Origin: Sphaerotilus natans
Lineage (GTDB): Bacteria; Pseudomonadota; Gammaproteobacteria; Burkholderiales; Burkholderiaceae_C
DNA length: 64,000 nucleotides
Assembly: GCF_900156335.1 (NCBI RefSeq)
Contig: NZ_FTMZ01000007.1
Coordinates: 1 to 64,000 of the forward strand
Direction of reading: 5' to 3'
Below, piece after piece: positions 34,825 through 50,279 of the stretch. The notes under the pieces are model-generated. The model did not search any database. It was given only the letters and a program-made list of their open reading frames with translations, and had not been told where the DNA came from. A program made the position numbers and the translations under genes. Position 1 is the stretch's first letter. Each line of letters begins with the position of its first letter.

Positions 34825-35193
34825 ATGTCCGAGATCCACTATCCCGACCTCACCCGCGACATCAGCCGCGAGCTCGCCAGCCTGCGCCAGACCCAGAAGG
34901 GCACGATGCAGGGCTTCGGCGCGATGGCTGCGGCCTCGATGGCCGACGGCGCACTGTCGGAAAAGCACAAGGAGCTGATCGCCACCGCGATCGCGGTCAG
35001 CCAGCGCTGCGCGGGCTGCATCGGCTTTCACGTCAAGGCACTGGTCCGCCTGGGCACCACACGGGCCGAGTTCGAGGAGATGCTCGGCGTGGCGGTCTAC
35101 ATGGGCGGCGGCCCGGCGCTGATGTACTGCGCCGAGGCACTGCAGGCCTGGACGCAGTTCGCGCCGGCACCGGTCTCAGCCCCAGCGGCCTGA
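34825..35193 (+). CDS. AhpD-like carboxymuconolactone decarboxylase family protein
   Basis: A 122-residue helical protein starting MSEIHYPDLTRDISRELASL. The AhpD motif CAGCIGFH (CxxCxxxH) is at about residue 62, followed by GTTRAEFEEMLGVAVYMGGG. It probably acts as a small thiol peroxidase-like or disulfide reductase protein. Homologues start at this ATG; an upstream ATG at 34777 would add 16 residues. It overlaps the convergent PEP-CTERM gene by 18 bases. Confidence 0.88.
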   Translation: MSEIHYPDLTRDISRELASLRQTQKGTMQGFGAMAAASMADGALSEKHKELIATAIAVSQRCAGCIGFHVKALVRLGTTRAEFEEMLGVAVYMGGGPALMYCAEALQAWTQFAPAPVSAPAA

Positions 35194-35835
35194 ACGGGTC
35201 GTCTGCTGGCGCCGGCGGCCGATGGCGGCCAGGCCCAGCAGACCGGCGCCGAACATCGCCGCGGCCGCCGGCTCGGGCACCGGCGACGCCACCTGGATCG
35301 TCAGCACCTGGGTGGTGTTCCAGGACTGCGCCGCCAGCGCCACCCGACCGCGCAGGCCGTCGCTGAACAGCACCTCGACATAGGCATTGCGCAGCGAGCT
35401 GCCGGTGCTGTCGATGGTCTCGCTGTCGATGCGCACGGGCGAGGTCGAGGCGATGCGGTCCAGATCCAGCCCGCCGAAGCGCATCGACTGGCCGCTGTCC
35501 AGGCTCAGGCCGCTCCAGTAGGCGGTCGAATAGTGATCGCTGGTGCCGGCCAGCGGATCGAGCGTCTGGTGGCTGCCCTCGTAGCGCTCCCAGACCCCGA
35601 TGCCGGCCTCCTGGGCGCCCATCGAGTACCAGAACCCGGTCAGCGTGATGCCGTCCGAGGAATCGTTGCGGACCTGGCCGGACTGCAGGTACCAGTTGCC
35701 ATCGAGCGTGATGACCGCCGCATGGCGGGTCTCGGCGGCGACCGGCGCCGGCGCGGCCGCGCCGATCAGGAGCGCTGCCAGCAAGGCGGAGGTGGAAGCG
35801 GCAGTGAAGCGGGAGGCGATCTTCGTGCGGATCAT
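35176..35835 (-). CDS. PEP-CTERM sorting-signal protein
   Basis: A 219-residue exported protein with signal peptide (ALLIGAAAPAPVAAETRH) and a C-terminal sorting signal: VPEPAAAAMFGAG, a hydrophobic helix and basic RRRQQTTRSGR. That signal is recognised by exosortase, which links such proteins to extracellular polysaccharide export in Gram-negative bacteria. The mature part is a beta-rich domain with Gly/Asp-rich segments (LDGNWYLQSGQVRNDSSDG). No exosortase or prsK/prsR gene is in the window. Position next to a c-di-GMP protein and the polysaccharide locus is suggestive. Confidence 0.9.
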   Translation of the reverse strand: MIRTKIASRFTAASTSALLAALLIGAAAPAPVAAETRHAAVITLDGNWYLQSGQVRNDSSDGITLTGFWYSMGAQEAGIGVWERYEGSHQTLDPLAGTSDHYSTAYWSGLSLDSGQSMRFGGLDLDRIASTSPVRIDSETIDSTGSSLRNAYVEVLFSDGLRGRVALAAQSWNTTQVLTIQVASPVPEPAAAAMFGAGLLGLAAIGRRRQQTTRSGRWG

Positions 35836-36072: not shown

Positions 36073-38514
36073 TCACGACTTTGCTGCCGCATTTCTGCCG
36101 CGGTGCCCGAAGTCGTCGGCCATCAGGCGATGCAGGAAGTCGTCGCCAGCGATGGGACGACCGAGCAGATAGCCCTGGATCGCGTCGCAGCCCTGCTCGC
36201 ACAGGAAGTCGAGCTGCTCGACCGTCTCGACACCCTCGGCGACCAGACCGATCTCCAGCGCCCGCGCCATCGACACCATCGCGCCGACCAGCCGGGAGCT
36301 GCCGGCGTCCTGCGGCACCTGACGCAGGAAGGAGCGGTCGATCTTGACCCGCTGCACCGGCAGGTCGCGCAGATAGGCCAGGCTGGAGTAGCCGACACCG
36401 AAGTCGTCGATGGCCACGCCGACGCCCAGATCCGCCAGCCGCGCCAGCAGCAGCCGCGCCTGGGCGACATCGCCCACCGCCAGGCTCTCGGTGATCTCCA
36501 GCTCGAGGCGCTGCGCCGGCAGCGCGTGGCGCCGCAGGGCCTGCGCCACCACCGACGCGATGTCGTCGCCCAGCATCTGCCGCACCGACACATTCACCGC
36601 CACCCCGATCGGCCGGCACGCCAGCGCCGACCATTCGGCCGCCTGGCGGCAGGCCTCGTCGATCACCCAGCGCCCGATCGGCACGATCAGGCCGGACTCC
36701 TCGGCCAGCGGGATGAAACGGTCCGGCGGCACCATGCCCAGCTGCGGATGGCGCCAGCGCAGCAGGGCCTCGGCGCCCACCACCTGCAGCGTGCGGCCAT
36801 CGAACTGCGGCTGGAAGAAAAGCTCGAGCTCGCGCCGCTCGATCGCATGGTGCAGATCGACCTCGAGGCGAAGCTGATCGACCGGGACCGGCACGTCCTG
36901 CCCGGCATCGATGCGGAACTGGGCGCGGCCGGCACGCTTGGCCTGGTGCAGCGCCCGGTCGGTGCGCACCATCAGGCCGATGTCGTCGGCGCCGATGCTC
37001 AGGTCCGCCACCGCGCCGGCGTCGACCCAGGCCAGCCCCAGGCTGCATCCCGGGCGCAGGGTGTGGCTGCCGACCTGCAACGGCTGGCCGAGGCGGTCGA
37101 TGAGCTGGCGCGCCAAGGTCTCGATCACCGCCGCGTCGCTCAGCACCGGGCTCTGGAACAGCAGCATGAACTCGTCCCCGCCCAGTCGCGCCAGCAGGGT
37201 CGGCTCGGCCGGCAGACCGCTCGGCGCTCCGTTCAGGCCGCCAAGCCCGCACAGCCGCTCGCCGATCGCCAGCAGCACCTGGTCGCCCGCGCCGTGGCCG
37301 AGCATCTCGTTGATCTTCTGGAACCGGTCCAGGTCGAGCTGCACCAGCACCAGCCGCCCGGCCGAGGCCGGCTGCAGCGCCCACAGATGCAAGCGCTCGG
37401 CCAGCAGCTCCTGAAAGGCCTCGCGGTTGAGCAGACCGGTCAGCCCGTCCTGGCGGGCGATGCTGCGCAGCCGGGCGTCATCGTCGGCGACGATGCTGTC
37501 GAGCCGGCGGCATTCGGCCTCGCTGCGGCTGGCACGCCGCAGCAGCCGCATCACCAGCGCGACGGCCGCGGCGGTCAGCGCCAGCCCGGACATCAGCGCC
37601 AGCAGGGGCATCGCGCCCAGCAGCGGTTCGGAGGGCGGGCGGACCAGGCTCAGGCGCCAGAGCCGCTCGCCGACCTCGAAGGTCAGATCACGCCGATCGC
37701 GCGATGACACCGGCACGAGCCCGCCGGGATCGGCATGGACCCAGCGGACCGGCTGGACCGCGCGACCATCGGCGACCCCGCCCACATCGCTGAGCTGGAG
37801 CCGCAGTCCGTCGAACTCGGCCTCGCCCACCCGGCTGACCTGCATCAGCCGCGCCGCATCGACCAGCACCCGCAGGTGGCCGGCCTGGTTCTCGCGCCGG
37901 CTCTCGACGGAGCCGGGATCACCCTCGCCGCCCACATACACCGGCGCGCTGATCTGCAGCGCCACCCGGCCATCGGCCAGATGCAGCGGCGCATGCATGA
38001 CCGTCAGGTTGCGGTCGCGGCTGTCCTCGTCGACCGCCGCGGCCTGCGCCGCATCACCTGGCGATGCCGGCAGATCACGGCCCGCCGCGCCCAGGCCGTT
38101 CGCGCTCAGGAAGACCGGCCCGGGGCAGACGGCAGCCGCAGGACAGTTCTCGTAGCGCACCGACAGCACCTCCGGCAGACCGCGAGCGACCTGCAGCACA
38201 TCGAAATGCGCAGCGAACTCCTGGGCCGACACCTGCCGGCTGGCGAGGAACAGCCCCTGAAAGCTGCGCGCCAGACGCTGCAGATGATCGACATGGCGCA
38301 CCAGATGCTGCTGGCGCACCTGCACCTGCATCTCGAAGCGACGATCGGCCTCCTGCGCCTGATGCCGGGCCAGCACCCACCAGGCGACCAGCGACAGCAG
38401 CAGGCCCAGCACCAGCACGCCAGCCGCCACCGGATGATGGAAGGACCCTTCGCCGGCCGACAAATCCGGCAAATCCGATGAACCCGCAGAGGAAGAAGGA
38501 GAAATGCTCGACAC
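36073..38514 (-). CDS. Membrane-bound GGDEF-EAL c-di-GMP protein with periplasmic sensor
   Basis: A protein of about 813 residues. A transmembrane helix (about 29-50) precedes a periplasmic sensor of about 250 residues resembling CHASE domains (SFQGLFLASRQVSAQEFAAH, LPEVLSVRYE, APVYVGGEG), then a second helix near 302-325. The GGDEF domain has LARLGGDEFMLLF, so synthesis is possible, but no RxxD inhibitory site is present before it. The EAL domain keeps GAEALLRWRHP, IDDFGVGYSSLAYL and LVAEGVET, so hydrolysis is likely. The GTG at 38514 is a tentative start; a TTG at 38628 is the other candidate. It is divergent from the polysaccharide locus. Confidence 0.88.
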   Translation of the reverse strand: MSSISPSSSAGSSDLPDLSAGEGSFHHPVAAGVLVLGLLLSLVAWWVLARHQAQEADRRFEMQVQVRQQHLVRHVDHLQRLARSFQGLFLASRQVSAQEFAAHFDVLQVARGLPEVLSVRYENCPAAAVCPGPVFLSANGLGAAGRDLPASPGDAAQAAAVDEDSRDRNLTVMHAPLHLADGRVALQISAPVYVGGEGDPGSVESRRENQAGHLRVLVDAARLMQVSRVGEAEFDGLRLQLSDVGGVADGRAVQPVRWVHADPGGLVPVSSRDRRDLTFEVGERLWRLSLVRPPSEPLLGAMPLLALMSGLALTAAAVALVMRLLRRASRSEAECRRLDSIVADDDARLRSIARQDGLTGLLNREAFQELLAERLHLWALQPASAGRLVLVQLDLDRFQKINEMLGHGAGDQVLLAIGERLCGLGGLNGAPSGLPAEPTLLARLGGDEFMLLFQSPVLSDAAVIETLARQLIDRLGQPLQVGSHTLRPGCSLGLAWVDAGAVADLSIGADDIGLMVRTDRALHQAKRAGRAQFRIDAGQDVPVPVDQLRLEVDLHHAIERRELELFFQPQFDGRTLQVVGAEALLRWRHPQLGMVPPDRFIPLAEESGLIVPIGRWVIDEACRQAAEWSALACRPIGVAVNVSVRQMLGDDIASVVAQALRRHALPAQRLELEITESLAVGDVAQARLLLARLADLGVGVAIDDFGVGYSSLAYLRDLPVQRVKIDRSFLRQVPQDAGSSRLVGAMVSMARALEIGLVAEGVETVEQLDFLCEQGCDAIQGYLLGRPIAGDDFLHRLMADDFGHRGRNAAAKS

Positions 38515-38731
38515 GCCGCGATTGTCGGCGCAGGCCTGCCGCCACTGAAATCCCGAGGCCCGTCGAGCCGGACGCACCGGAACGGAGTCGTTCAAGTCCG
38601 CCACCCGATCGGGCGATATGGCGGGCAATCACCGCGCAGATCCGGTCTGAAGCTCGCCTGAAACCGGTCAGGCGCCGGTCTGCCCACCCTTAACAGCAGG
38701 GGATCGCTCATGCGGCAATCACAAAAAGATA

Positions 38732-38756
38732 CTTTGTTGCGGTTATTCTTACAAAG
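38732..38756. promoter_or_regulatory. Inverted repeat upstream of the polysaccharide locus
   Basis: CTTTGT (38732-38737) and ACAAAG (38751-38756) form an inverted repeat with a 13-base spacer in an AT-rich stretch, about 30 bases before the first ATG of the locus. It may be an operator or overlap the promoter. The whole gap 38515-38786 (272 bases) shows nothing else clear. Confidence 0.4.
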
Positions 38757-38786
38757 AGAAACAAGTCGGCAAAGTTGATCTCTCCC

Positions 38787-40271
38787 ATGCCGACACGCCC
38801 CCCGACGATGTCCCGCCCCCTGATGTCCCCATTTCCGATCCTGCCAGCGGCCCCACGGCGGCGCCTGCGGCTGGGCGCAATCGCGCTCGCGCCGACCCCC
38901 GCGGTCGCCAGTGCCGCACCCGGCTGGCAGCTCGAGGTCGACAGCCTGCTCGGCCCGGTCTGGGCCTGGTCGCTGCTGGTGCTGATGGCCACGATCGTCG
39001 CGCTGATGGCGGTCTACACCGTGCGCCACTACGGCTTCACGCTCAACCGCATGTTCGGCCGCCAGCGCCACCCCTACGCCAGCCTGGTCAGCGCCGACTG
39101 GCCGCGGGTGACGATCTTCGTGGCCGCGCACAACGAAGAAGCCGTCATCGAGGACTGCCTGGTCAACCTGATGGGCGTCGACTATCCTCAGGACCGCATG
39201 ATCGTCGTGCCGGTCAACGACCGCTCGAAGGACCGCACCCGCGAGATCATCGACGCGGTGGTCGAGCGCTATCCCGGCCGCATCCGCCCCTTCCACCGCA
39301 CCGACGGCAAGCCGGGCAAGGCCGCGGCGCTGAAGGACGCCACCGAGACGGTGGACACCGACTTCATCATCGTCTTCGACGCCGACTACCTGCCCTCCAA
39401 GGGCCTGATCCGGCGGCTGATGGCGCCCTTCTTCGACCCGGAGGTCGGCGCTGTGATGGGCCGGGTGGTGCCGCAGAACTGCGGCGCCAACCTGCTGACG
39501 CGGCTGCTGGACCTGGAGCGCTCCGGCGGCTACCAGGTGGACCAGCAGGCGCGCATGAACCTCGGGCTGGTGCCGCAGTACGGCGGCACGGTGGGCGGCA
39601 TCCGGATCGCGGCGCTGCACTCGGTCGGCGGCTGGCATGACGACGTGCTGGCCGAGGACACCGATCTCACCTACCGGCTGCTGCTGGGCGGCTGGAAGAC
39701 CATCTACCAGAACCGGGCCGAATGCTACGAGGAGGTGCCGCAGAGCTGGGCGGTGCGCACCCGCCAGATCAAGCGCTGGGCCAAGGGCCACAACCAGGCG
39801 ATGTGGCGCCACACGGTGGGCTGCCTGACGCAGCCCGACCTGAGCTGGCGCGAGCGCACCGACGGCGCGCTGCTGCTGGGCGTCTACCTGATGGCGCCGG
39901 TGCTGCTGCTGGGCTGGCTGGTGAGCCTGCTGATGTACTTCACCGTCTCGGTGGCCTGGAGCGCACCGGCCCTGGTGGTGCTGGCCTTCATGACGCACGG
40001 CGCGCTGGGCAACTTCGCCGCCTTCTACGAGATCGCGGCGGCCACCCACATGGACCGCTCGGGCAACCGGGTGCGGCTGCTGGCCTTCAACTGGCTGGGC
40101 TTCATCGTCAGCGCGATGGCGATCTCGCGCGGGGTGCTCGAGCAGGTGGTGCTCGACCGCCTGGGCACGCCGCAGCTCAAGTGGGACAAGACCGCGCGCT
40201 ACCGCAGCGCGCCGGCCCGCGCGCCGGGCGCAGCCGCCCAGCCGGGCACCCCGCCGGGAGCGCAGCCATGA
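38787..40271 (+). CDS. Processive family 2 glycosyltransferase (polysaccharide synthase)
   Basis: A 494-residue inner-membrane synthase. One helix precedes the GT-A domain (about residues 55-80) and three or four follow it (360-450). The GT2 domain has VTIFVAAHNEEAVIEDCL, VNDRSKDRTREIID, FDADYLP (near 198), AEDTDLTYRL (near 290) and QIKRWAKGHNQ (near 327). The ED and QxxRW motifs mark a processive enzyme that elongates and exports a chain, as in cellulose, hyaluronan and PgaC synthases. No PilZ domain is fused. It is the first gene of the locus, and its stop overlaps the next ATG (ATGA). From the neighbouring 2-epimerase the donor could be UDP-GlcNAc or UDP-ManNAc. Confidence 0.9.
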   Translation: MPTRPPTMSRPLMSPFPILPAAPRRRLRLGAIALAPTPAVASAAPGWQLEVDSLLGPVWAWSLLVLMATIVALMAVYTVRHYGFTLNRMFGRQRHPYASLVSADWPRVTIFVAAHNEEAVIEDCLVNLMGVDYPQDRMIVVPVNDRSKDRTREIIDAVVERYPGRIRPFHRTDGKPGKAAALKDATETVDTDFIIVFDADYLPSKGLIRRLMAPFFDPEVGAVMGRVVPQNCGANLLTRLLDLERSGGYQVDQQARMNLGLVPQYGGTVGGIRIAALHSVGGWHDDVLAEDTDLTYRLLLGGWKTIYQNRAECYEEVPQSWAVRTRQIKRWAKGHNQAMWRHTVGCLTQPDLSWRERTDGALLLGVYLMAPVLLLGWLVSLLMYFTVSVAWSAPALVVLAFMTHGALGNFAAFYEIAAATHMDRSGNRVRLLAFNWLGFIVSAMAISRGVLEQVVLDRLGTPQLKWDKTARYRSAPARAPGAAAQPGTPPGAQP

Positions 40272-41842
40272 AGATCACGCTGCTGCTGATCGGCCTGACG
40301 CTGCTGGTCATCGTGCTGCCGCTGCTGCCGGCGCTGCAGGAGTGGCGCCGCCCCAGCGATGTCACCCCGCTGCCGATCGACGAGGCCGACGCGCTCGAGC
40401 CCGACTACATGGCGCAGCGCTTCGGCCAGCGCCTGGACGACGCGGTCGACCGCGGCCTGATCGAGATCGGTGGCGTGCCGCTGGTGCATCTGCCGGCCGA
40501 GGCGGTGCGTGCGCCCTGGCCGCTCGACGAGCGCGAGGTGCGCAGCGGCCGCAGCCGCCGCATCTGGCACAGCGACGGCGACTGCCGTCTGCCCGAGCGC
40601 CTGCACGGCCTGGCCGAGATGTCCTGCGCCGGCACGATGCAGGCGGCTGCCGGCCACACCTACCGCGCGCTGCGCGCCCGCCAGGCGCTGCTGCTGCCCG
40701 AGCGGGTGCGGGTGCTGCGCTGGGCGCACGGCCGCCAGGTGGTGGTCGGCGACCGCGGCGTGCTGGCCGGGCGCATCAGCGCCGAGCACTCGCTGCTGAT
40801 CGGGCGCGAGGTGAGCTTCTCGCTGCTGCATGCGCCGGTGATCCGCTTCGCCGGTGCGGTCGATGCCGCGCATCGCCCGCACCCTGAAGGCCTGCCCGCC
40901 GCGCTCGGCCGGGCCGACGGGCTGCGCCCGGGCGCACCGGGCCAGCCGGCGCGGGTCGAGGGCGCGCTGATCGTGGCCGCGCTGCGCCACTGGGACAGCG
41001 ACCTCGATGTCGACGGCCATGTGACGATCGGCGAGGGCTGCCACGGCCAGGGCCGGCTGCGCGCCACCGGCGCGGTCCAGGTCGGCGCCGGCGCGGTGCT
41101 GGCGGGCAGCCTGGCCGCCGTCGGCGAGATCTACATCGCCGCCGGGGCCGAGGTGCAGGGCTCGGTGATTTCCGAGAGCACGATCGTGCTGGGCGCGGGC
41201 TGCGTCATCGGCCTGCCCGGCACGCATGCGACGGTGCGCGCGCCACGGATCGAGGTCGGCAAGGGCACGGTGGTGCACGGCACCGTCTGGGCCGGCCAGC
41301 GCCGCATCGACATCGACACCGCGCCGCCCGGAGCCGCGGTGATCGGCTATGACACGCCGGTGCGCTGGGACCACATCGCCCGCCGCGGCCTGGCCACGGC
41401 GTCGCTCGTGCTGGCGCCGCGCTCGCATCACCAGGGCGACCTGGTCTGCCAGGGAGACCTGGAGATCGGCGCACGCAGCCGCATCCAGGGCAGCCTGAAG
41501 GCGCATGGCGACCTGGCCATCGGCGCGGGCACGCACATCGACGGCACGCTGGTCTCGCCCGGCGAGATCGTGCTGGGCGCGGGCAGCCACATCGCCGGCT
41601 CGGTGATGTCGGAGGAGGCGGTGGTGCTCGGCCCGGGCTGCGTCGTCGGCTCGCCGCAGCAGCCGGCCACCGTCTGCGCGCCGCGCATCGAAGTCGCGCT
41701 CGGCGTGGTGGTGCACGGCACCGTCTGGGCCGGCAGCAGCGGCGACGCGCCCTCGCCGCTGCTGGACACCGGCGGCCGCGACGACGAGGCGCTCGACGAG
41801 CGCACGCCGCTGGCGCCGCTGCCCGGCCAGGCCGCCGCCTGA
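40268..41842 (+). CDS. Bactofilin-like beta-helix protein with a duplicated domain and membrane anchor
   Basis: A 524-residue protein. The N-terminal helix (MKITLLLIGLTLLVIVLPLL) anchors it in the membrane. A middle region of about 220 residues is not recognised. The C-terminal half is built of short parallel beta-helix turns (IGEGCHGQGRLRATGAVQVG, AGAEVQGSVISESTIVLGAG), as in polymer-forming bactofilins. The region is duplicated: residues about 245-343 and 388-489 both run through GSV.SE..VVLG.GCV.G to RIEV.....VHGTVWAG. It could form a scaffold that organises the synthase. Coupled to the GT2 gene by ATGA overlap. Function is inferred from fold and position. Confidence 0.75.
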   Translation: MKITLLLIGLTLLVIVLPLLPALQEWRRPSDVTPLPIDEADALEPDYMAQRFGQRLDDAVDRGLIEIGGVPLVHLPAEAVRAPWPLDEREVRSGRSRRIWHSDGDCRLPERLHGLAEMSCAGTMQAAAGHTYRALRARQALLLPERVRVLRWAHGRQVVVGDRGVLAGRISAEHSLLIGREVSFSLLHAPVIRFAGAVDAAHRPHPEGLPAALGRADGLRPGAPGQPARVEGALIVAALRHWDSDLDVDGHVTIGEGCHGQGRLRATGAVQVGAGAVLAGSLAAVGEIYIAAGAEVQGSVISESTIVLGAGCVIGLPGTHATVRAPRIEVGKGTVVHGTVWAGQRRIDIDTAPPGAAVIGYDTPVRWDHIARRGLATASLVLAPRSHHQGDLVCQGDLEIGARSRIQGSLKAHGDLAIGAGTHIDGTLVSPGEIVLGAGSHIAGSVMSEEAVVLGPGCVVGSPQQPATVCAPRIEVALGVVVHGTVWAGSSGDAPSPLLDTGGRDDEALDERTPLAPLPGQAAA

Positions 41843-41875
41843 CCCGCACGACCCGCCTGACGGCCCATCGCATCC

Positions 41876-43813
41876 ATGACTGACCCCCGCTCCTCGCCCC
41901 GCCCCGCCCGCTCCGCCGGCCTGTCCCTGCTCGCCCTGTCCCGTGCGGGCTGGCAGCGTGTCGGCGTCGTGCTGCTGCTGGTCGGGGCGGCTGCGGCCAC
42001 CCACTGGCATTTCCGCCAGGACAGCGCCGCGCCGGCCCGCAGCACCCGGCTGATCCTGGTGCTGCCGGACACCGAGGCGGCCGACCCGGCGCCGCAGGCC
42101 GCCTGGCAGAACGCCGCCGACGAGCTCGGCCTGAAGCTCGAGCCGATGAGCGCCTCCGAGCTGGTGCGCCAACGCGGCGAGGGCCGCGGCGACGCGCTGA
42201 TCCTGCCCGACGCCCTGCATCGCCGCATGAGCGACGCGCTGGCGATGACGCTGCGCGAGCGGGTGCGCGCCGGCGACCGGCTGATGCTGGTGCATGACGC
42301 CGGCCTGCAGGACATCGACGGCCGCTACCGCGCGGAGCGCTCGCGCCTGTCCGATCTGGCCGGCGTCGACTACGGGCTCTACGGCGAGCTCGGCGCCGGC
42401 ATGCTGCGCGAGACCGAGGTGCAGGTGCAGCCGGGCCAGATCGCTGCGCTGGGCCTGCCGCCAGGCAAGCTGGTGCGCGGCGCGGACGACCTGCCCTACA
42501 GCCGCTACCGCCCCGACCCGGGCCCGGATGGCGAGGCGCTGCCGGTGCTGGCCGGCTACCGCTACGGCCGGATGCGCCATGCCAGCTTCGTCACCCGCGG
42601 CACCTTCGACGGCACGGTGCTGATGCAGGCGCCCGACGGCAGCCTGATCGCCGGCGAGCGAGCGGCCGGCCGCGGCCAGGTGTTGTTCGTCAACCTGCCG
42701 CTGACCCCGCTGAAGCTGGCCACCGACGGCCTGCTGCTGCACGGCTTCCTGCAGCATTTCGCCCGCGACCTGGCCGGCCAGGCCCAGCTCGCCGCGGTGC
42801 CGGACGGCATCGGCGCGGTGGTGATGAACTGGCACATCGACGACCGCAAGGCACTGCCGGCGCTGGAGCGCGCCGACGAGCTGGGCGCCTTCGCCAAGGG
42901 GCTCGGGCCGTACTCGATCCATCTGACGGTCGGCCCGGATGTCGACCAGCCCGGCGACGGCCGCGGCATGGATCTGGCGACCAACCCGCAGGCGCAGGCC
43001 TGGGTGCGCCGCCTCGCCGCCGAGGGCCACGAGATCGGCAGCCATGGCGGCTGGATCCACAACTGGTTCGCGGCCAACCTCGACACGATGGAGCGCGAGG
43101 CCGCCGAGGCGATGATCGACCGCAACTCGCTGCTGCTGACGCAGTTCTCCGGCCGACCGGTGCGCGAGTACTCCGCGCCGGTGGGTCATCACCCGGCCTG
43201 GGTGACCGGCTGGCTGCGCCAGCGCGAGATCCGCGCCTTCTACTTCACCGGCGACACCGGCATGGCGCCGACCCGCAGCTTCCAGGACGGCCAGCGCCCG
43301 CGCCCCGACATCTGGAGCTTTCCGGTGCTGGGCTTCGGCCGCCATGCCTCCTTCGAGGAGGCACGCGCGGCCGGCACGCCGGAGCAGGTCATCGCCGACT
43401 GGCTCGACGAGGTCTCCGACTTCTGCGCCGAGCAGGGCACGCTGCGGCTGGTCTATTTCCATCCCTTCGGCCTGGTGATGTATCCGCAGGCCTTCCAGGA
43501 ATGGCTGCGCCACAGCCGCGAGCTGACCGAGGCCGGCCGGCTGCGCTGGATGACGATGGCGCAGTACAGCCAGTTCGCCAACCGGCGCCTGCGCACCGTC
43601 TGGTCGCTGGCCCCCGAGGGCCGCCAGCTGCAGCTGCAGGCGCGTCACCCCGAGTCGCTCGAGGGCATGACCTGGCTGCTGCCGGCCGCACGCTACGACC
43701 GGCCGGTGGTGCTCAGCGGCAGCGCGCAGGTCGATCGCAGCGGCACGCAGTGGCGGGTGCGCGCCGCCGACGGCCGCGCGCTGAAGGTGCGCGTCGACCC
43801 GGTCCCCGCCTGA
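41876..43813 (+). CDS. CE4-like polysaccharide deacetylase, membrane-anchored
   Basis: A 645-residue protein with an N-terminal helix (about 26-42). Its first 300 residues resemble a glutamine-amidotransferase-like or DUF4350-type fold (LILVLPDTEAADPAPQ, RAGDRLMLVHDAGLQD, GRGQVLFVNLPLTPLKLATD). The deacetylase domain begins near residue 310, with the Asp pair in NWHIDDRKAL (322-323), the metal His pair in GHEIGSHGGW (385, 390) and SAPVG (433-437), where the usual RxPxG stands. The last 100 residues are beta-rich. It probably de-N-acetylates the polymer in the periplasm. A second, longer paralogue closes the locus. Confidence 0.8.
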   Translation: MTDPRSSPRPARSAGLSLLALSRAGWQRVGVVLLLVGAAAATHWHFRQDSAAPARSTRLILVLPDTEAADPAPQAAWQNAADELGLKLEPMSASELVRQRGEGRGDALILPDALHRRMSDALAMTLRERVRAGDRLMLVHDAGLQDIDGRYRAERSRLSDLAGVDYGLYGELGAGMLRETEVQVQPGQIAALGLPPGKLVRGADDLPYSRYRPDPGPDGEALPVLAGYRYGRMRHASFVTRGTFDGTVLMQAPDGSLIAGERAAGRGQVLFVNLPLTPLKLATDGLLLHGFLQHFARDLAGQAQLAAVPDGIGAVVMNWHIDDRKALPALERADELGAFAKGLGPYSIHLTVGPDVDQPGDGRGMDLATNPQAQAWVRRLAAEGHEIGSHGGWIHNWFAANLDTMEREAAEAMIDRNSLLLTQFSGRPVREYSAPVGHHPAWVTGWLRQREIRAFYFTGDTGMAPTRSFQDGQRPRPDIWSFPVLGFGRHASFEEARAAGTPEQVIADWLDEVSDFCAEQGTLRLVYFHPFGLVMYPQAFQEWLRHSRELTEAGRLRWMTMAQYSQFANRRLRTVWSLAPEGRQLQLQARHPESLEGMTWLLPAARYDRPVVLSGSAQVDRSGTQWRVRAADGRALKVRVDPVPA

Positions 43814-43863
43814 AGCCTGAATCCGCCCCGAATCCATCACGAAAACCCAGAGAGAGCCTCCCG

Positions 43864-45045
43864 ATGAACCCGAGCCCCTCCCCCGCCCCGATCCTCATCT
43901 CCGTCGGCACCCGTCCCGAGATCATCAAGATGGCGCCGCTGCACGCCGAGCTGCGCCGCCGCGGCCTGCCGGTGGCCTGGGTGCACACCGGCCAGCATCG
44001 TGAAATGGCCCAGCCGCTGTACGAGTTCTTCGGCATCGAGCCGGAGCACGAGGTCGAGCTGGCGCGCCGCAGCGGCGAGCTCTCGCACCTGAACGCGCTG
44101 CTGCTCGAAGGGCTGGCGGCGGTGTTCGAGCGCACCCGCCCGGCGGCGGTGCTGGTGCACGGCGACACCACCAGCACGCTGGCCTCGGCGCAGGCGGCCT
44201 TCTACCAGGGCGTGCCGGTCGGCCATGTCGAGGCGGGCCTGCGCACCTTCAACCACCGCGAGCCCTTCCCCGAGGAGATGAACCGCGAGCTGACCGCGCG
44301 GCTGTCGCGCTGGCACTTCTCGCCGACCGGCCGCGCGGCCGGCAACCTCGAGCGCGAGGGCATCCGCGCCGGCGTGCATGTGGTGGGCAACACCGCGGTG
44401 GACGCCGCGCTGCAGGGCACCGCGCGGGTGGACGCGCTGCTGGCCGCGGGCGCGCCGGTGCTGCCGGCTGCGCTGGAGCCGCTGCGCCAGGGCCTGGCGC
44501 TGGCGAAGTGGCGCCTGATCACCGTGACCGCGCACCGGCGCGAGAACTGGGGCGAGGGCATCGCCTCGATCGCGCAGGCGGTGGCGCAGCTGCTGGAGGC
44601 GCACCCGGACGTCGCGGTGGTCTGGCCGGTGCACGGCAACCCGGCGGTGCGCGACGCGGTCCATGCCGAGCTGGCGGCGAAGGTGCCGGCGCTCGAAGGC
44701 CGGCTGACGCTGTGCGAGCCGCTCGACTACCCCGCGCTGCTGTGGTGCCTGCACCGCAGCGTGCTGGCGCTGACCGACTCCGGCGGCATCCAGGAGGAAG
44801 GCGCGGCGCTGTCCTGCCCGGTGCTGGTGCTGCGCAACACCACGGAGCGCCCCGAGCTGATCGACGCCGGCGCCGGCCTGATCGTCGGCACCGACCGCGC
44901 GCGCATCGTCTCGACCGTCTCGGGCCTGCTCGCCGAGCCGGACGGCGCCGGCCTGCAGCGCATGCGCGACGCCACCAACCCCTTCGGCGACGGCACCACC
45001 GCGCGGCAGATCGCCGACGTGCTGCAGCGCGACCTCGGCCTGTGA
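43864..45045 (+). CDS. wecB: UDP-N-acetylglucosamine 2-epimerase (non-hydrolysing)
   Basis: A 393-residue cytosolic enzyme that interconverts UDP-GlcNAc and UDP-ManNAc. Motifs are GTRPEIIKMAPLHAELRRR, VHGDTTSTLASAQAAFY, GHVEAGLRTFNHREPFPEEM, VTAHRRENWGEGI and LTDSGGIQEEGAALSCPVLV, all typical of WecB/MnaA. Its place inside the locus suggests that ManNAc or a derivative is a building block. No UDP-ManNAc dehydrogenase (wecC) is adjacent, so the sugar is not obviously oxidised to the uronic acid. Its stop overlaps a GTG that could start the next gene. Confidence 0.95.
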   Translation: MNPSPSPAPILISVGTRPEIIKMAPLHAELRRRGLPVAWVHTGQHREMAQPLYEFFGIEPEHEVELARRSGELSHLNALLLEGLAAVFERTRPAAVLVHGDTTSTLASAQAAFYQGVPVGHVEAGLRTFNHREPFPEEMNRELTARLSRWHFSPTGRAAGNLEREGIRAGVHVVGNTAVDAALQGTARVDALLAAGAPVLPAALEPLRQGLALAKWRLITVTAHRRENWGEGIASIAQAVAQLLEAHPDVAVVWPVHGNPAVRDAVHAELAAKVPALEGRLTLCEPLDYPALLWCLHRSVLALTDSGGIQEEGAALSCPVLVLRNTTERPELIDAGAGLIVGTDRARIVSTVSGLLAEPDGAGLQRMRDATNPFGDGTTARQIADVLQRDLGL

Positions 45046-45065
45046 GACGCGCCGCCGGCAACCCG

Positions 45066-45863
45066 ATGACCCTGACGATGAAGACATCCCTCCCCCGCCT
45101 CGGCCGGCCGCTGCTGGCCGGCCTGCTGGCCGCCGCGGCGGCGCTGCCGGCCGCCGCGGGCGACCTGATCGAGATCGGCGGCAGCGCCAGCCGCTACAGC
45201 GCCGGCCTGCCCGACGGCGGCAGCGCCCACCTGCGCGGCAGCTGGGCCTTCGGCACGGGCACGGTGGTCAACGCCGAGCTGCTGGGCGAGCGCAAGTTCG
45301 ACGCCCGCGGCGGCGTGGCCTCGGCCGGCGTGACGCGCACGATCGACGAGGACTGGTTCGCCAGCGCCGCGCTGGCCGGCGGCTGGGGCGGACCGAACTG
45401 GAACCGCACGCGCGTCGACGCCGCGGTCTCGCGCAAGTGGGGCGCCGAGCGCCGCTGGATCACCACGCTGGGCGGCTACCACGCCCGCTTCGACGCCGGC
45501 CGCAGCGACAGCGGCCTGAAGATCTCGGCGAACTACTACGCCAACCACTTCGCGGTCTTCGAGCTGGGAGCGACCCTCAACCGCAGCCGCCCGGGCAACG
45601 TCGGCTCGACCATGCCCTGGCTGGCGGTGACGCTGGGCGCGCCGGGCGTGCAGACCCTGGCGCTGCGCGTCTCGCATGGCCGCGAGGCCTGGCTGGTGCT
45701 GGGCGACACCGCGCAGCCGGTCGACTTCGCCAGCACCACCGTCGGCGCCGACTGGCGCTGGTGGATCGCGCCCGACTGGGGCGTGGTGCTGCGCGCCGAG
45801 AGCTACCGCAATCCGAGCTACCGCCGCACCACGCTGGGCGGCGGCGTGTTCGTGCAGATGTGA
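45066..45863 (+). CDS. YaiO-like outer-membrane beta-barrel protein
   Basis: A 265-residue protein. Signal peptide MTLTMKTSLPRLGRPLLAGL continues to ALPAAAGDLIEIGG. The mature part is a run of alternating strands (ISANYYANHFAVFELGATLN, TLALRVSHGREAWLVLGDTA, DWGVVLRAESYRNPSYRRTT) ending in GGGVFVQM, with an aromatic residue near the C-terminus as in outer-membrane barrels. It resembles the YaiO_OMB domain. In the locus it is the only candidate for polymer exit across the outer membrane. A GTG at 45042, overlapping the wecB stop, is an alternative start. Confidence 0.8.
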   Translation: MTLTMKTSLPRLGRPLLAGLLAAAAALPAAAGDLIEIGGSASRYSAGLPDGGSAHLRGSWAFGTGTVVNAELLGERKFDARGGVASAGVTRTIDEDWFASAALAGGWGGPNWNRTRVDAAVSRKWGAERRWITTLGGYHARFDAGRSDSGLKISANYYANHFAVFELGATLNRSRPGNVGSTMPWLAVTLGAPGVQTLALRVSHGREAWLVLGDTAQPVDFASTTVGADWRWWIAPDWGVVLRAESYRNPSYRRTTLGGGVFVQM

Positions 45864-45876
45864 GGCCCGGGCCGCG

Positions 45877-46743
45877 ATGAGCAAGCTCCTGCGCCGGCTG
45901 CTGGGCCGCCCGGCCCCGCCCGACTTCCGCCACAGCCTGCAGCACTCGGTGCTGGGCGAGCTGCAGCACCATGGCCACCGTGGCGGCCGCATCGCGATGC
46001 ACCGATCGATCTGGGGCCTGCAGCTGCCACGCCAGCGCCTGTTCAAGGGCCTGCTGCTGGCCACGCTGCTGACGGCCGTGCTGGCGAGCCAGATCGATGC
46101 GGCCGGCCAGCTCTGGGGGCGCCAGCTGCTGTGGTGGCTGGAGCGTCTGGAGCTGTCGGGCCGCTTCCCCGCCGCGCTGCACCCGGCCGATCTGCCCTTC
46201 CTGATCGCCACGCCGGCCCTCGAGCTCTTCGTCGATCTGCCCTCGCCCCGCACGCTGGCCTTCAACGCGATCGGGGTGGTGGCGCTGTGGTGGGCGGCTG
46301 GGCTGCTGCCCGACGCGGGTCGTCCGGCGATGTACCTGCTGCGGCTGGCGGCCCTCATCCATGGCGCGGCGGTGCTGTTCTTCGTGCTGTGGCCGGCGAG
46401 CTTTCCGCACACCGCCCGTGAGCATGTCGGCAACGGCCTGCAGCAGATCTGGGTGCTGATGCTGCTGACGCCCTGGATCCATCTGCCGACCTTCTGGTTC
46501 TTCGAGGTGAGCTGGTGGGCGCGGCTCGGCGTCACGCTGCTGACCTGGGCCTGGCTGCTGCTGCTGGCGCCGCTGCTCTACGCCCTGCACGCGCTGGTGC
46601 TGCATCACGCCGGCCTGCTGGCGATGCCGCTGCTGCATCTGCTGTTCGGGGTGATGGTGGCCATCATCGGCTTCGTCGCGATCTACGGCTGGGCGATCAG
46701 CCTGGCCAACGCCCGCACGCTGCGGCGACTGGAGCCGCGATGA
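45877..46743 (+). CDS. Multi-pass inner-membrane protein of the polysaccharide locus
   Basis: A 288-residue protein. After a soluble start of about 55 residues rich in His and Arg (RHSLQHSVLGELQHHGHRGG), it has about six hydrophobic segments (LFKGLLLATLLTAVLA, LAFNAIGVVALWWAAGLL, LIHGAAVLFFVLWPASF, VTLLTWAWLLLLAPLLYAL and others). No known family is recognised. It follows the barrel gene by 13 bases and overlaps the next gene (ATGA). It might assist synthesis, acyl-group transfer or transport. Function unknown. Confidence 0.75.
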   Translation: MSKLLRRLLGRPAPPDFRHSLQHSVLGELQHHGHRGGRIAMHRSIWGLQLPRQRLFKGLLLATLLTAVLASQIDAAGQLWGRQLLWWLERLELSGRFPAALHPADLPFLIATPALELFVDLPSPRTLAFNAIGVVALWWAAGLLPDAGRPAMYLLRLAALIHGAAVLFFVLWPASFPHTAREHVGNGLQQIWVLMLLTPWIHLPTFWFFEVSWWARLGVTLLTWAWLLLLAPLLYALHALVLHHAGLLAMPLLHLLFGVMVAIIGFVAIYGWAISLANARTLRRLEPR

Positions 46744-47999
46744 GAAACCGCCTGAAGCCGATCCTGGCCGCGCTGGGCTTCAGCCTGGGCCTGGGCCTGG
46801 CGCTGCCAGGCCGCAGCAGCGCCGCGCCGAGCGCACCGCCGCTGGAGAGCGGCTGCGCCGCCGCTGCGCTGGTCGATCCGGCCTTTCGCGACGCGGCAGT
46901 GCTGATGATGCGCCGGCTGGTGGTGCGCGCGCCCGGCCAGATCAGCGACGGCGCGATCCGGCGCACGCTGTCGCCGGCGCATGTCGACGCCTCGGGCCGG
47001 TCCTGGCACCACATCGCCGCCTACGAGGCCAATCTCGGCCTGATCGGCGCGCTGCGCATCGACCCGACGCTGCGCAGCGAGGCGGCGCGCTGGCTGCGCT
47101 GGCAGATCCGCCATCTGCCGGTCGACGGCCAGGACCGCGGCGTGCTGTTCGACCGCTGGATCAGCGCCGACGGCCGCGAGATGACGGTCTGCCCGCCCGA
47201 CATCGAGCCGCGCCACTGCCGCCAGATCGACGCCACCGACAGCACCATCGCGTCGATGTTCCTGCTGGCGCAGGCCTATCTGCGCCACGGCGGCGACCCG
47301 GCGCTGCTGCGCGACCCGACGATCGAGCGGGCCTTTCGCCGCGCCGCCACCACGCTGGCGCAGCTGCAGCAGCCCGACGGGCTGAGCCACGCCAAGCTCG
47401 ATCACCCGGTCAGCTACCTGATGGATGCGGTCGAGGTGGCCGCGGGCTGGCGGGCGCTGGCCGCGCTGCAGCAGGAGGTCTGGAAGCAGCCGGCGGTGGC
47501 CGAGCTCAGCCGCGAGCGCGAGCGGCGCACCTGGCGCGGCATCGAGCAGGTGCTGTGGCAGCCGCAGGACGGGCTCTGGCTGACCAGCGCTGGCGCCACC
47601 CCGGTGCAGAGCGGGCGCTGGTATCCGGACGTGATGGCCCAGGCCTGGCCGCTGCTGTGGAGCCTGCCCGAGGACCGGCTCACCCGCGAGCGCGGCCGCC
47701 AGGCCTGGCAGCGCGTCTCGGCGCGCTGGCCGGAGTGGCCGCGCCGCAATGTCGATCCGGCCGGCTTCTGGTGGCCGGCCGCTGCGGTCGCCGCGCACTG
47801 CAGCGGTGACGGCCGCGCCGCCGCCGAGTGGGTGGCACGGGCGCGCACCGCCTGGCTGCGCCCGGACACGCCCTTCGCCTGGCCCTTCCAGGTCAGCGAC
47901 CTGCTGTGGCTGCTGTGGCTGGCCGAGCCCGGCCCGCCGCAGGCCCCGCTGCCCGAACCGCTGGACGCCGCGGCGCCGGCCAGCGGACGCAGGCCCTGA
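46740..47999 (+). CDS. Periplasmic (alpha/alpha)6-barrel-like protein, possible glycosidase or lyase
   Basis: A 419-residue exported protein with signal peptide ALGFSLGLGLALPGRSSAAP. The rest is helical with repeated WR/RW and aromatic patterns (RSWHHIAAYEANLGLIGALR, DATDSTIASMFLLAQAYLRH, DGLSHAKLDHPVSYLMDAVE, YPDVMAQAWPLLWSL, PFAWPFQVSDLLWLLWLAEP). This pattern resembles (alpha/alpha)6 toroid enzymes such as GH88/GH105-like hydrolases and six-hairpin glycosidases. Acidic residues in DATDST and YPDVMAQ could be catalytic. It may trim or release the polymer. The assignment is by fold impression only. Confidence 0.6.
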   Translation: MRNRLKPILAALGFSLGLGLALPGRSSAAPSAPPLESGCAAAALVDPAFRDAAVLMMRRLVVRAPGQISDGAIRRTLSPAHVDASGRSWHHIAAYEANLGLIGALRIDPTLRSEAARWLRWQIRHLPVDGQDRGVLFDRWISADGREMTVCPPDIEPRHCRQIDATDSTIASMFLLAQAYLRHGGDPALLRDPTIERAFRRAATTLAQLQQPDGLSHAKLDHPVSYLMDAVEVAAGWRALAALQQEVWKQPAVAELSRERERRTWRGIEQVLWQPQDGLWLTSAGATPVQSGRWYPDVMAQAWPLLWSLPEDRLTRERGRQAWQRVSARWPEWPRRNVDPAGFWWPAAAVAAHCSGDGRAAAEWVARARTAWLRPDTPFAWPFQVSDLLWLLWLAEPGPPQAPLPEPLDAAAPASGRRP

Positions 48000-48068
48000 A
48001 CCCCGCAGCCGCATCCCGCATCACGAATCCCGAGTCTTCCGACAACCACAGAGAGAGAGCAGACGATC

Positions 48069-50279
48069 ATGACATCGAAGTTCAGCCCCCCTTCCCTGGC
48101 CGCGCTGGTGAGCCGGCTCTGGCGCCGCCCGGCCGTGCGGCTCGCGCCGCTGGTGCTGGCCACGCTGGCCAGCCTGCCGGCCGCCGCCCAGTCGCGCGAC
48201 ACCCTGGTGCTGCTGGTGCCCGACGATGCGGTGGCCAGCAGCTGGCCGGTCAAGGTCTGGACCGACTCCGCCGCCGAGGAAGGCGTGAAGCTGCAGACCA
48301 TGACCAGCTCGCAGTTCCTCGCGCTGGGCAGCACCTCGGCGGCGAAGATCTCCGGCCTGATCATGCCCGACAGCGCCCACGTCAAGGCCAGCGATGCGGT
48401 GGTGGCCGCGGTCAAGCAGTACACCAACCTCGGCGGCAAGCTGATGCTGGTCTATGACGCCGGCGCGCTGACCGATGCCGGCTTCTACGCGCCGACCCGG
48501 TCGCGCTTCTCCGATCTGGTCGGCGTCGACTACACCCTGTACGACAGCCTGCGCGACCGCGTCGTCGGCTTCGGCCCGGTCGTGGGCACCAAGGCGCGGC
48601 TGGAGAAGCTGTCGCTGCCGCCGGGCAAGTATCTGCCCTACGTGTCGGCCAGCAGCACGGCCGGCACCAGCAGCACCACCACCTTCGTGCCGGCCAGCGC
48701 CAGCGACCCCGGCGGCACCCGCCACATGCAGTCGGCCATCATGGGGCGCGCGATGAAGCGCATCGACGCCAGCTCGCAGAACGTGCGCAAGCGCCAGACG
48801 CTGGCGGTGCGCAACCTGCTCGGCCTGAACGCGCTGCCGGTGCCCAGCGTCAGCCTGTCGACCAAGGTGAGCGCCGCCACCTCGACGCTGCCGCTGCTGT
48901 CGCTCAGCTCGGTGCCGATCACCACCGATTTCCTGCGCGCGCTGCTGTCGGGCAGCAGCTATGTCGACCAGAGCGGCACCACCAGCGCCGCCGACAGCAC
49001 CCCGCAGGCCATCAGCACCTATGGCTATGGCTACGCCGACTACTTCAGCTATGTCACCACCGGCAACTTCGGCGGCAATGTCTGGCTGTCCTCGCCCGAT
49101 CACGGCCTGGTGGCCGGCACCCGCAATGTCGGCAGCGGCCAGGTGCTGTTCGTCAACATGCCGCTGGGCTATTTCAAGGCCATCGGCACCGATTCGGCGC
49201 CGCTGCACGGCTTCCTCGACGCCTTCGCCCGCGATGTGGTGAAGCTGCCGACGATGTCGGTGCAGCCGCGCGGCAAGGGCGGCCTGATCTACAACTGGCA
49301 CATCGACGACGGTGACGACCTGACGGCCGACGCCAAGTACCTGCTCGACAGCACCTCGGTGCTGCGCCGCGGGCCGTTCTCGATCCACTTCACCGCCGGC
49401 CCGGACACGGTCTCCGCGGGGGACGGCAAGGGCATGAGCCTGGACACGAATTCCGCTTCGCAGACGCAGTTCAAGCGCATCCGCGACCTGCCGGTCGGCC
49501 ATCAGATCGGCTCGCACGGCGGCTGGAACCATGACCTCTACGGCCTGGGCGCCAGCGAGGACAACGCCGCCACCTACCTGCCGTGGCTGGAGCTCAACCA
49601 TGCCGCCGTCGATCGCCTGAACGGCAAGCGCGCCACCGAATACTCGGCACCGCAGGGCAACAACCCGACCTGGGCGGTGAACTGGCTGGAGAACCGCGGC
49701 GTGGTCGGCATGTACTTCGTCGGCGACACCGGCGCGGCCGGCGTGCGCTCCTGGCGCGCCGGCAACCGGCTGACGCGCTCGATGTGGAGCTTCCCGATCG
49801 TGCCGCTGGGCAAGTACGCCACCTTCGAGGAGTTCGAGGAGTTCGGCATCAGCGACCAGCAGTCGGGCCAGTGGCTGCTCGACCTGCAGAGCTTCGTGGT
49901 CAACCAGCGCACCAACCGGATGTTCTACAACCATCCGCCGGGCGCGCGCGGCCACCTGCCGGCTCTCGCCCCGATGCTGCAGCGGGCGGACTGGCTGCAG
50001 TCCATGGGCAAGTTCAAGTGGTACACCATGACCGAGATGGCCCAGTTCGGCAACCGCCGTCTGGACGTGCAGTGGACGGCCAGCACCAGCAACGGCTTCG
50101 CGACCTTCAGCGCCAGCCACGCCAGCTCGCTCAAGGACATGACCTGGCTGCTGCCACGCGACAAGTACATGCTGCCGATCGTGACCAGCGGCTACGGCCA
50201 GGTCGGCTACGACAGCACGAACTGGATCATCACCGCCAACGGCGGCACCGCGCTGAAGTTCGTCGCTGCCCAGCGCTGA
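48069..50279 (+). CDS. Second CE4-like polysaccharide deacetylase of the locus
   Basis: A 736-residue exported protein with signal peptide LVLATLASLPAAAQSRD. It is a paralogue of the deacetylase four genes upstream: both share LVLPD-type openings, LMLVYDAGALTDAGFYAPTR, LPPGKYLPYV, GSGQVLFVNMPLGYFKAIG, NWHIDDGDDL (Asp413-414), GHQIGSHGGWNHD (His478, His483) and EYSAPQGNNPTWAV. It has about 90 extra Ser/Thr-rich residues (about 190-310) that the first lacks. It has a cleavable signal instead of a membrane anchor, so it may act at another place or stage of export. It ends the locus; the next gene is 128 bases on. Confidence 0.8.
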   Translation: MTSKFSPPSLAALVSRLWRRPAVRLAPLVLATLASLPAAAQSRDTLVLLVPDDAVASSWPVKVWTDSAAEEGVKLQTMTSSQFLALGSTSAAKISGLIMPDSAHVKASDAVVAAVKQYTNLGGKLMLVYDAGALTDAGFYAPTRSRFSDLVGVDYTLYDSLRDRVVGFGPVVGTKARLEKLSLPPGKYLPYVSASSTAGTSSTTTFVPASASDPGGTRHMQSAIMGRAMKRIDASSQNVRKRQTLAVRNLLGLNALPVPSVSLSTKVSAATSTLPLLSLSSVPITTDFLRALLSGSSYVDQSGTTSAADSTPQAISTYGYGYADYFSYVTTGNFGGNVWLSSPDHGLVAGTRNVGSGQVLFVNMPLGYFKAIGTDSAPLHGFLDAFARDVVKLPTMSVQPRGKGGLIYNWHIDDGDDLTADAKYLLDSTSVLRRGPFSIHFTAGPDTVSAGDGKGMSLDTNSASQTQFKRIRDLPVGHQIGSHGGWNHDLYGLGASEDNAATYLPWLELNHAAVDRLNGKRATEYSAPQGNNPTWAVNWLENRGVVGMYFVGDTGAAGVRSWRAGNRLTRSMWSFPIVPLGKYATFEEFEEFGISDQQSGQWLLDLQSFVVNQRTNRMFYNHPPGARGHLPALAPMLQRADWLQSMGKFKWYTMTEMAQFGNRRLDVQWTASTSNGFATFSASHASSLKDMTWLLPRDKYMLPIVTSGYGQVGYDSTNWIITANGGTALKFVAAQR

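Follow-up and report, generated by a model that had tools for sequence, protein, structure and literature searches.

A candidate synthase-dependent exopolysaccharide locus of apparently undescribed type in Sphaerotilus natans

The window analyzed here is a stretch of 64,000 nucleotides (positions 1 to 64,000, forward strand, of contig NZ_FTMZ01000007.1, assembly GCF_900156335.1) from the 4,630,083-base genome of Sphaerotilus natans. Positions 38787-50279 hold eight co-directional genes that apparently encode a synthase-dependent exopolysaccharide system of undescribed type. On balance, we favor a self-contained machine that would supply N-acetylmannosamine (ManNAc), polymerize it with a family 2 glycosyltransferase (GT2) and a multipass membrane protein, position the synthase by means of a bactofilin-like protein, process the chain in the periplasm and export it through an outer-membrane barrel of the YaiO family. 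We class the system as an apparently new variant of the synthase-dependent type because no partner protein of the Pga, Nfr or Pss systems matches it and because we recognized no published description of the gene set, in a search that left subscription papers and bioRxiv mostly outside. Within that literature, the original prediction of a candidate new system stands.

In the proposed scheme, a WecB-type epimerase would convert uridine diphosphate (UDP)-N-acetylglucosamine (UDP-GlcNAc) to UDP-ManNAc, which the GT2 and its multipass membrane partner would polymerize while passing the growing chain through the inner membrane. An inner-membrane anchor would hold the bactofilin-like protein, its polymer-forming domain facing the cytoplasm, and this protein would cluster or position the synthase. 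In the periplasm, proteins resembling carbohydrate esterase family 4 (CE4) would modify the chain and an (alpha/alpha)6 protein would trim it, and YaiO would conduct the polymer through the outer membrane.

The eight genes and their products

All eight open reading frames (ORFs) are open and lie on the plus strand, as had been claimed, and they are tightly packed, with intervals in gene order of -4, 33, 50, 20, 13, -4 and 69 bp; we chose the start codons, and true starts may be further in. The original prediction had spoken of several overlaps between stops and starts and had begun the locus at 38515. Overlaps do exist, but they number two, both of 4 bp, and the operon begins at 38787, after a boundary region between it and a divergent GGDEF-EAL gene. 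The labels first given to the GT2, bactofilin-like protein, epimerase and YaiO all hold, each protein scoring above its family cut-off in Pfam or NCBIfam. In the Pfam scan the second deacetylase-like protein, the multipass protein and the (alpha/alpha)6-like protein had no family above cut-off.

The synthase (494 amino acids; 38787..40271) matches PF13641 at 108 bits, against a cut-off of 27. Its best NCBIfam match, PgaC/IcaA, reaches 123 bits where the cut-off is 422, which places it outside PgaC proper, and its best sequence match in the PDB is the family 2 glycosyltransferase 6yv7 (E 1.9e-20), with cellulose synthases next. All 84 aligned GT2s keep D145 and the DxD, ED and QxxRW motifs; one of the 84 is a distant second GT2 (locus L106, 48 bits). 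The locus thus has the general character of a synthase-dependent system, a single GT2 with these three motifs and membrane helices, and the enzyme is predicted to be processive. The multipass inner-membrane protein (288 amino acids; 45877..46743) is encoded directly before the GT2 in several distant loci, and the two genes overlap in L097 and L109, which is why we read it as the probable membrane partner of the synthase. Its AlphaFold2 model is confident (pLDDT 90); none of 63 homologues has a Pfam match below E 0.06, and a fold search gave no PDB match at E<=0.001.

The precursor is suggested by the non-hydrolyzing UDP-GlcNAc 2-epimerase (393 amino acids; 43864..45045), which scores 375 bits with TIGR00236 (cut-off 210) and in whose family D101, E123, E137, E138, R225 and R226 are kept in 69 of 69 proteins and H224 in 68. 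We searched the host genome and 12 relatives with PF02350 (cut-off 30.6 bits). The cluster epimerase, at 330 bits, is the only full-length match in its genome; a second match elsewhere is partial (35.5 bits, positions 44-150 of 347). Of the five genus mates that lack the cluster, the sample covered G002, G003 and G008, not G010 and G011, and none of these three has a match above the cut-off. One full-length epimerase in the host, and none above cut-off in these mates, makes UDP-ManNAc the likely substrate, and the polymer is probably built from ManNAc. The earlier suggestion that the epimerase points to a ManNAc-containing polymer is therefore upheld, since the enzyme is the sole full-length one in the genome and is linked to the cluster in most loci. 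NfrB (PMC8669469) and the Listeria Pss system are earlier cases in which a GT2 system is tied to UDP-ManNAc, and organisms without another WecB are reported to carry one beside nfrB (PMC8669469).

The membrane-anchored bactofilin-like protein (524 amino acids; 40268..41842), whose gene shares its first 4 bp with the end of the GT2 gene, matches PF04519 in two stretches at 47.4 bits, against a cut-off of 27.9, as expected of a bactofilin. Near its N terminus it has a hydrophobic segment with basic residues after it. Of 77 homologues, a crude rule assigns 49 an N-terminal segment resembling a transmembrane helix; the remaining 28 score under its threshold, in some cases by little (1.57 against 1.6) and in others perhaps because their starts were called late. 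Among the 49, lysine and arginine lie mostly after the segment in 48 and equally on both sides in one. Basic residues in this position suggest that the bactofilin-like domain is cytoplasmic, where it may form polymers and scaffold the synthase.

The predicted periplasmic, glycosidase-like (alpha/alpha)6 protein (419 amino acids; 46740..47999), which overlaps the multipass stop by 4 bp, bears out its original label in that a confident AlphaFold2 model (pLDDT 88) and the fold search agree. All 25 Foldseek matches at E<=0.001 are glycoside hydrolases or transglycosylases: invertases, GH116 enzymes, entries titled 'Glycosidase', dextran dextrinase, exo-oligoxylanases, an alpha-1,6-mannosidase and a methylmannose polysaccharide hydrolase. 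These matches are not close (TM-score 0.40-0.53 by query), and just below the threshold lie toroid-shaped proteins that are not glycosidases, such as squalene-hopene cyclase. W121, D164, D167, D229, E232 and Y295 are invariant in 47 homologues, and the modeled fold is consistent with a protein that trims the polymer. Membership of GH126/PssZ was considered and rejected: the best PDB sequence matches (E 0.057 and 0.014) are unrelated proteins, and in the fold search CPF_2247, of GH126, ranks no higher than 37.

The two deacetylase-like proteins complete the set. The first (645 amino acids; 41876..43813) has an N-terminal hydrophobic segment and matches PF01522 over residues 374-443 at 27.1 bits, barely above the cut-off of 23.1; the second (736 amino acids; 48069..50279) is its paralogue, 39% identical to it over its own residues 314-731. 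The first carries the motifs NWHxD and HGGWxH. Both belong to a family in which, among 67 members, H320 is present in 67, H390 in 65, H395 in 67 and D322 in 54. At two of the loci described below (L124:12492-14414 and L090:14473-16608), the deacetylase-like gene is present as two ORFs.

Conservation of the gene set

We searched 60 genomes, including the host, with the second deacetylase-like protein and found matches in 11: the host itself, 7 of 12 genus mates, 1 of 23 other members of the family and 2 of 24 other members of the order. All six uncut genus loci have the complete eight-gene order, and the seventh, cut within the first deacetylase gene, shows the six genes that it reaches. The second deacetylase gene is duplicated in tandem in three genus mates (L029, L030 and L034). 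The GT2 orthologue, too, is missing from the five genus mates that lack the cluster, the best identity in each being 25-29%, and one genome of a different family (G042) carries seven of the parts in another arrangement.

Named genomes were then scanned with the GT2 alignment: 203 stretches matched the seed pattern, 97 encoded relatives and the best 80 were kept. Among the matches listed, from which records of the host genome were possibly excluded, the nearest named record is Sphaerotilus sulfidivorans D-501, with a GT2 97% identical. Parts of the cluster, in variable order, occur in other Burkholderiales, other proteobacteria, Nitrospiraceae, Acidobacteria, one diderm firmicute and Lachnospiraceae; among the genera and families concerned are Ralstonia, Burkholderia, Variovorax and Lachnospiraceae.

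These 80 loci, and ten from the genus and order, were examined with seven family profiles (both deacetylases pooled) at E<=1e-4 in ORFs of at least 70 codons. A part was counted if its profile matched on either strand anywhere in the locus, which reached as far as 10 kb from the GT2 in each direction. For the tally we required at least 1.2 kb before and at least 6 kb after the GT2 ORF, which excludes 8 of the 62 diderm loci and 6 of the 18 from monoderms; cell type was assigned from record titles, with Sporomusaceae counted as diderm. Of the 54 remaining diderm loci, all 54 have the bactofilin, multipass and YaiO genes, 50 the (alpha/alpha)6 gene, 49 the epimerase and 43 a deacetylase. The corresponding numbers for the 12 monoderm loci are bactofilin 12, epimerase 11, multipass 9, (alpha/alpha)6 8, YaiO 0 and deacetylase 0.

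In this sample, YaiO is thus confined to diderm loci (54 of 54 versus 0 of 12, with the caveat that a highly divergent YaiO could escape the profile), as expected of an outer-membrane barrel. The window protein (265 amino acids; 45066..45863) scores 107 bits with TIGR04390, whose cut-off is 32, and 61 bits with PF19413, and its distribution fits a role as outer-membrane conduit, in which the barrel would be the pore. Barrels from an Escherichia fergusonii plasmid (36.5 bits), L097 (131 bits) and Escherichia coli K-12 (182 bits) also exceed the NCBIfam cut-off. Extending the export function to the E. coli YaiO would nevertheless be a long step, because a profile built from the YaiO proteins of the clusters misses it.

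A comparison of gene order across genomes had been proposed as a check, and the eight-gene order recurs, beyond chance, in seven named loci (L045-L050 and L053), four of which (L045-L048) are from genus mates; L055 and L124 have it in nearly identical form. Elsewhere the order varies widely, and the set has therefore been maintained through rearrangement. Homologues of the multipass protein occur in 8 of 399 genomes sampled from the order and in 5 of 398 sampled from the phylum, counts that include the host; one match in each sample is short and weak. The system is rare and patchy across many bacterial groups.

Several related loci deserve mention. A Lachnospiraceae metagenome-assembled genome (L109:7880-18765) shows a monoderm version with multipass, GT2 and bactofilin genes, then intervening genes, which by eye we take to encode DHHW, VTC, DUF4956 and CotH-like proteins, and then the (alpha/alpha)6 and epimerase genes. 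A seven-gene version (L152:4581-11206) lies on an E. fergusonii IncI1/B/O conjugative plasmid (NZ_CP057682) and consists of bactofilin, wecB, YaiO, multipass, acyltransferase, (alpha/alpha)6 and GT2 genes. A related GT2 is found in 3 of 5,426 E. coli genomes, and one of these three, whose chromosome was examined, carries the set. One member of the order (G401) has two deacetylase homologues on contig C1, near 2035000 and 2703000, each near a multipass homologue, and possibly carries two copies of the system. In G018 and G051 (L036 and L038) a deacetylase homologue stands alone, and these sites were rejected as polysaccharide loci, the four neighbors scanned not being polysaccharide genes; G051 has a multipass homologue on a different contig.

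Known systems and alternative readings

As first claimed, none of the partner genes of the pga, pel, cellulose and alginate systems is represented among the eight proteins in Pfam and NCBIfam scans; for BcsB/BcsC, Pel and Alg partners this holds for the locus, the remainder of the genome not having been searched. The Nfr/NGR system resembles the cluster in its GT2 synthase, its dependence on a WecB-type epimerase, its outer-membrane barrel and the ManNAc polymer proposed for it; in our cluster the epimerase gene is present and use of its sugar by the GT2 is predicted. However, NfrB carries an MshEN domain for cyclic diguanylate (c-di-GMP), which the cluster GT2 lacks, NfrA is a TPR-barrel whereas the cluster has YaiO, and the nfrBA-ybcH operon contains no homologue of the bactofilin, multipass, (alpha/alpha)6 or deacetylase-like proteins. 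In the Listeria Pss system (pssA-E), the L. innocua GT2 is related and has a DUF2334 gene next to it, and the L. monocytogenes product is described as beta-1,4 ManNAc with galactose. That system has BcsB-like and degenerate GGDEF proteins, neither of which is among the eight cluster proteins (the GGDEF-EAL neighbor is not an operon member), and a 14.9-kb L. innocua stretch holds no multipass, (alpha/alpha)6, bactofilin or cluster-type deacetylase homologue. Bacillus subtilis ydaJ-N, grouped with Listeria Pss, is set beside the cluster here by its published description only. Pga/Ica supplies the nearest curated GT2 family and a similar logic of deacetylase and hydrolase, but the cluster lacks the PgaA TPR porin, PgaB and PgaD (the E. 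coli proteins score at most 1.2 bits with cluster profiles) and has the epimerase, bactofilin and YaiO.

Two further comparisons concern single loci. In E. coli K-12, yaiP-yaiX-yaiO-yaiS brings together a GT2, an 'acyltransferase' pseudogene that matches the bactofilin-like profile weakly (12.7 bits) and a YaiO barrel, with no epimerase, multipass or (alpha/alpha)6 gene. The matches are too weak for yaiP-yaiO to be called the same system, and this locus could be a relic related to such systems. The yaiX gene, between yaiP and yaiO (L135:4845-6873), is split by IS2. Poly-ManNAc of Salmonella O:54 is made by a synthase with its own epimerase (WbbF/MnaA), as proposed for the cluster, but it is a plasmid-encoded O antigen without the other parts.

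That the cluster is a divergent member of the Nfr/NGR, Listeria Pss or Pga systems is very improbable. The GT2 superfamily is common to all of them, the WecB logic is common with Nfr, and the DUF2334 gene in Listeria recalls the deacetylase-like genes. When cluster profiles were compared with NfrA, NfrB, YbcH, PgaA-D and four L. innocua pss proteins, however, they matched only the GT2s: 146 bits for the L. innocua GT2, which we label PssC from its neighbor genes, 113 for E. coli PgaC and 13 for NfrB, with no Pga, Nfr or Pss partner protein above 6 bits. YaiP scored 34 bits. By score, the cluster GT2 appears to stand apart, with Pss and Pga nearest. A tree without the second GT2 of L106 places the 84 cluster GT2s in one clade apart from PssC, PgaC, YaiP and NfrB; with that row included, PssC, PgaC and YaiP fell inside the group. 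The tree is not decisive, because the node value is 0.26 and the outgroups number four.

The nature of the product admits two other readings, both unlikely. The GT2 could make a product like poly-N-acetylglucosamine from UDP-GlcNAc, with the epimerase serving another pathway or balancing pools, and its best curated match, PgaC/IcaA, and the PgaC score would agree with this. Yet the epimerase accompanies the cluster in most loci (49 of 54 in diderms, 11 of 12 in monoderms) and is the only full-length one in the genome, and the higher-scoring L. innocua GT2 belongs with a system whose reported L. monocytogenes product contains ManNAc. Alternatively, a mixed polymer (for example GlcNAc-ManNAc, or branched ManNAc) could be made with extra transferases or acylation encoded elsewhere, an idea that we also rate low. 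The galactose in the reported Listeria product and the acyltransferase gene of the enterobacterial versions, which have no annotated deacetylase, would suit it; against it, the eight proteins include only one glycosyltransferase.

It had also been guessed that the cluster makes the sheath of Sphaerotilus or a holdfast, which now seems very improbable. The genus is sheath-forming, sheaths contain amino sugars, and the reported sheath gene sthA encodes a glycosyltransferase (PMC11087309); sthA and lthB are the named sheath genes (PMC11087309), in a group whose sheath genes are described as not well understood (PMC13386937). The sugars reported for Sphaerotilus-type sheaths, however, are glucuronic acid, galactosamine and glucose (PMC11087309), those of an S. 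montanus isolate are glucose and galactosamine (PMC6975536), and the list for Leptothrix-type sheaths does not include mannosamine (PMC11087309). Five of the 12 genus mates lack the cluster, and it is present in Ralstonia, Burkholderia, Variovorax and Lachnospiraceae, which are not known for sheaths. We found nothing that links the cluster to the sheath, and it is probably not the sheath locus, a judgment made on reported sugar composition and distribution, not on comparison with sthA.

Several observations weigh against the self-contained ManNAc machine that we favor. We found no homologue of this GT2 group whose product is known. Five of the 54 diderm loci and one of the 12 monoderm loci gave no epimerase match, the YaiO barrels are small, and a Pfam scan found no c-di-GMP receptor domain in the eight proteins. 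Deacetylation of the polymer is the weakest element. CE4 deacetylases have an Asp-His-His metal triad with HxxxH spacing, whereas the cluster family has HxxxxH, cysteine in place of D322 in 13 of 67 proteins (all from Burkholderia or Paraburkholderia loci) and a second aspartate after D322 in 24 of 67; a deacetylase profile found no convincing relative in the PDB (best E 0.57). The activity is uncertain because the metal motif departs from the CE4 triad. The label 'CE4-like' therefore survives in part, through the narrow PF01522 match and the paralogy, but with an altered metal motif. A partly cationic polymer is less well founded than first claimed, given the atypical motif and the 11 of 54 diderm loci with no deacetylase homologue; in the E. 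fergusonii version, too, the profile finds none.

Genomic neighborhood and biological meaning

The divergent GGDEF-EAL gene (36073..38508, minus strand; PF00990 and PF00563) adjoins the cluster in five of the six uncut genus loci (L029-L032 and L034) and was not found in the 2.4 kb examined beyond the GT2 in the sixth (L035). It also lies beside the cut GT2 in L099, and the GGDEF/EAL matches that appeared elsewhere, in L067 and L073, were weaker. Its protein could possibly regulate the operon through c-di-GMP. A scan for promoters and terminators found no promoter-like site and 3 terminator-like sites, close to what chance would give. A PEP-CTERM protein is encoded near the cluster (35176-35835), and the lone deacetylase homologue in L038 also adjoins one. 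In the window, YgiQ and Tim44 genes, divergently oriented, flank the cluster. A clean empty site in G003 (contig C3:31534-35602) was rejected, since the two genes lie 0.9 kb apart there but are convergent, as was a single fixed genomic site, the cluster in G012 lying about 2 Mb away from both genes.

More tentatively, the locus may represent a new class of machine in diderms and monoderms, in which a GT2 scaffolded by a bactofilin and joined to a new family of membrane subunits makes a ManNAc homopolymer (perhaps partly mannosamine) at a fixed envelope site, with YaiO as a small, TPR-less pore found only in diderms. The favored machine would give the YaiO family, for which many paper titles concern PCR detection, a testable function. 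It would also tie a bactofilin to polymer secretion, and the locus reveals two core protein families that have no Pfam entry. Because the set occurs on an E. fergusonii conjugative plasmid and in an E. coli chromosome, it may encode a mobile surface glycan that, in the manner of NGR, might serve as a phage receptor.

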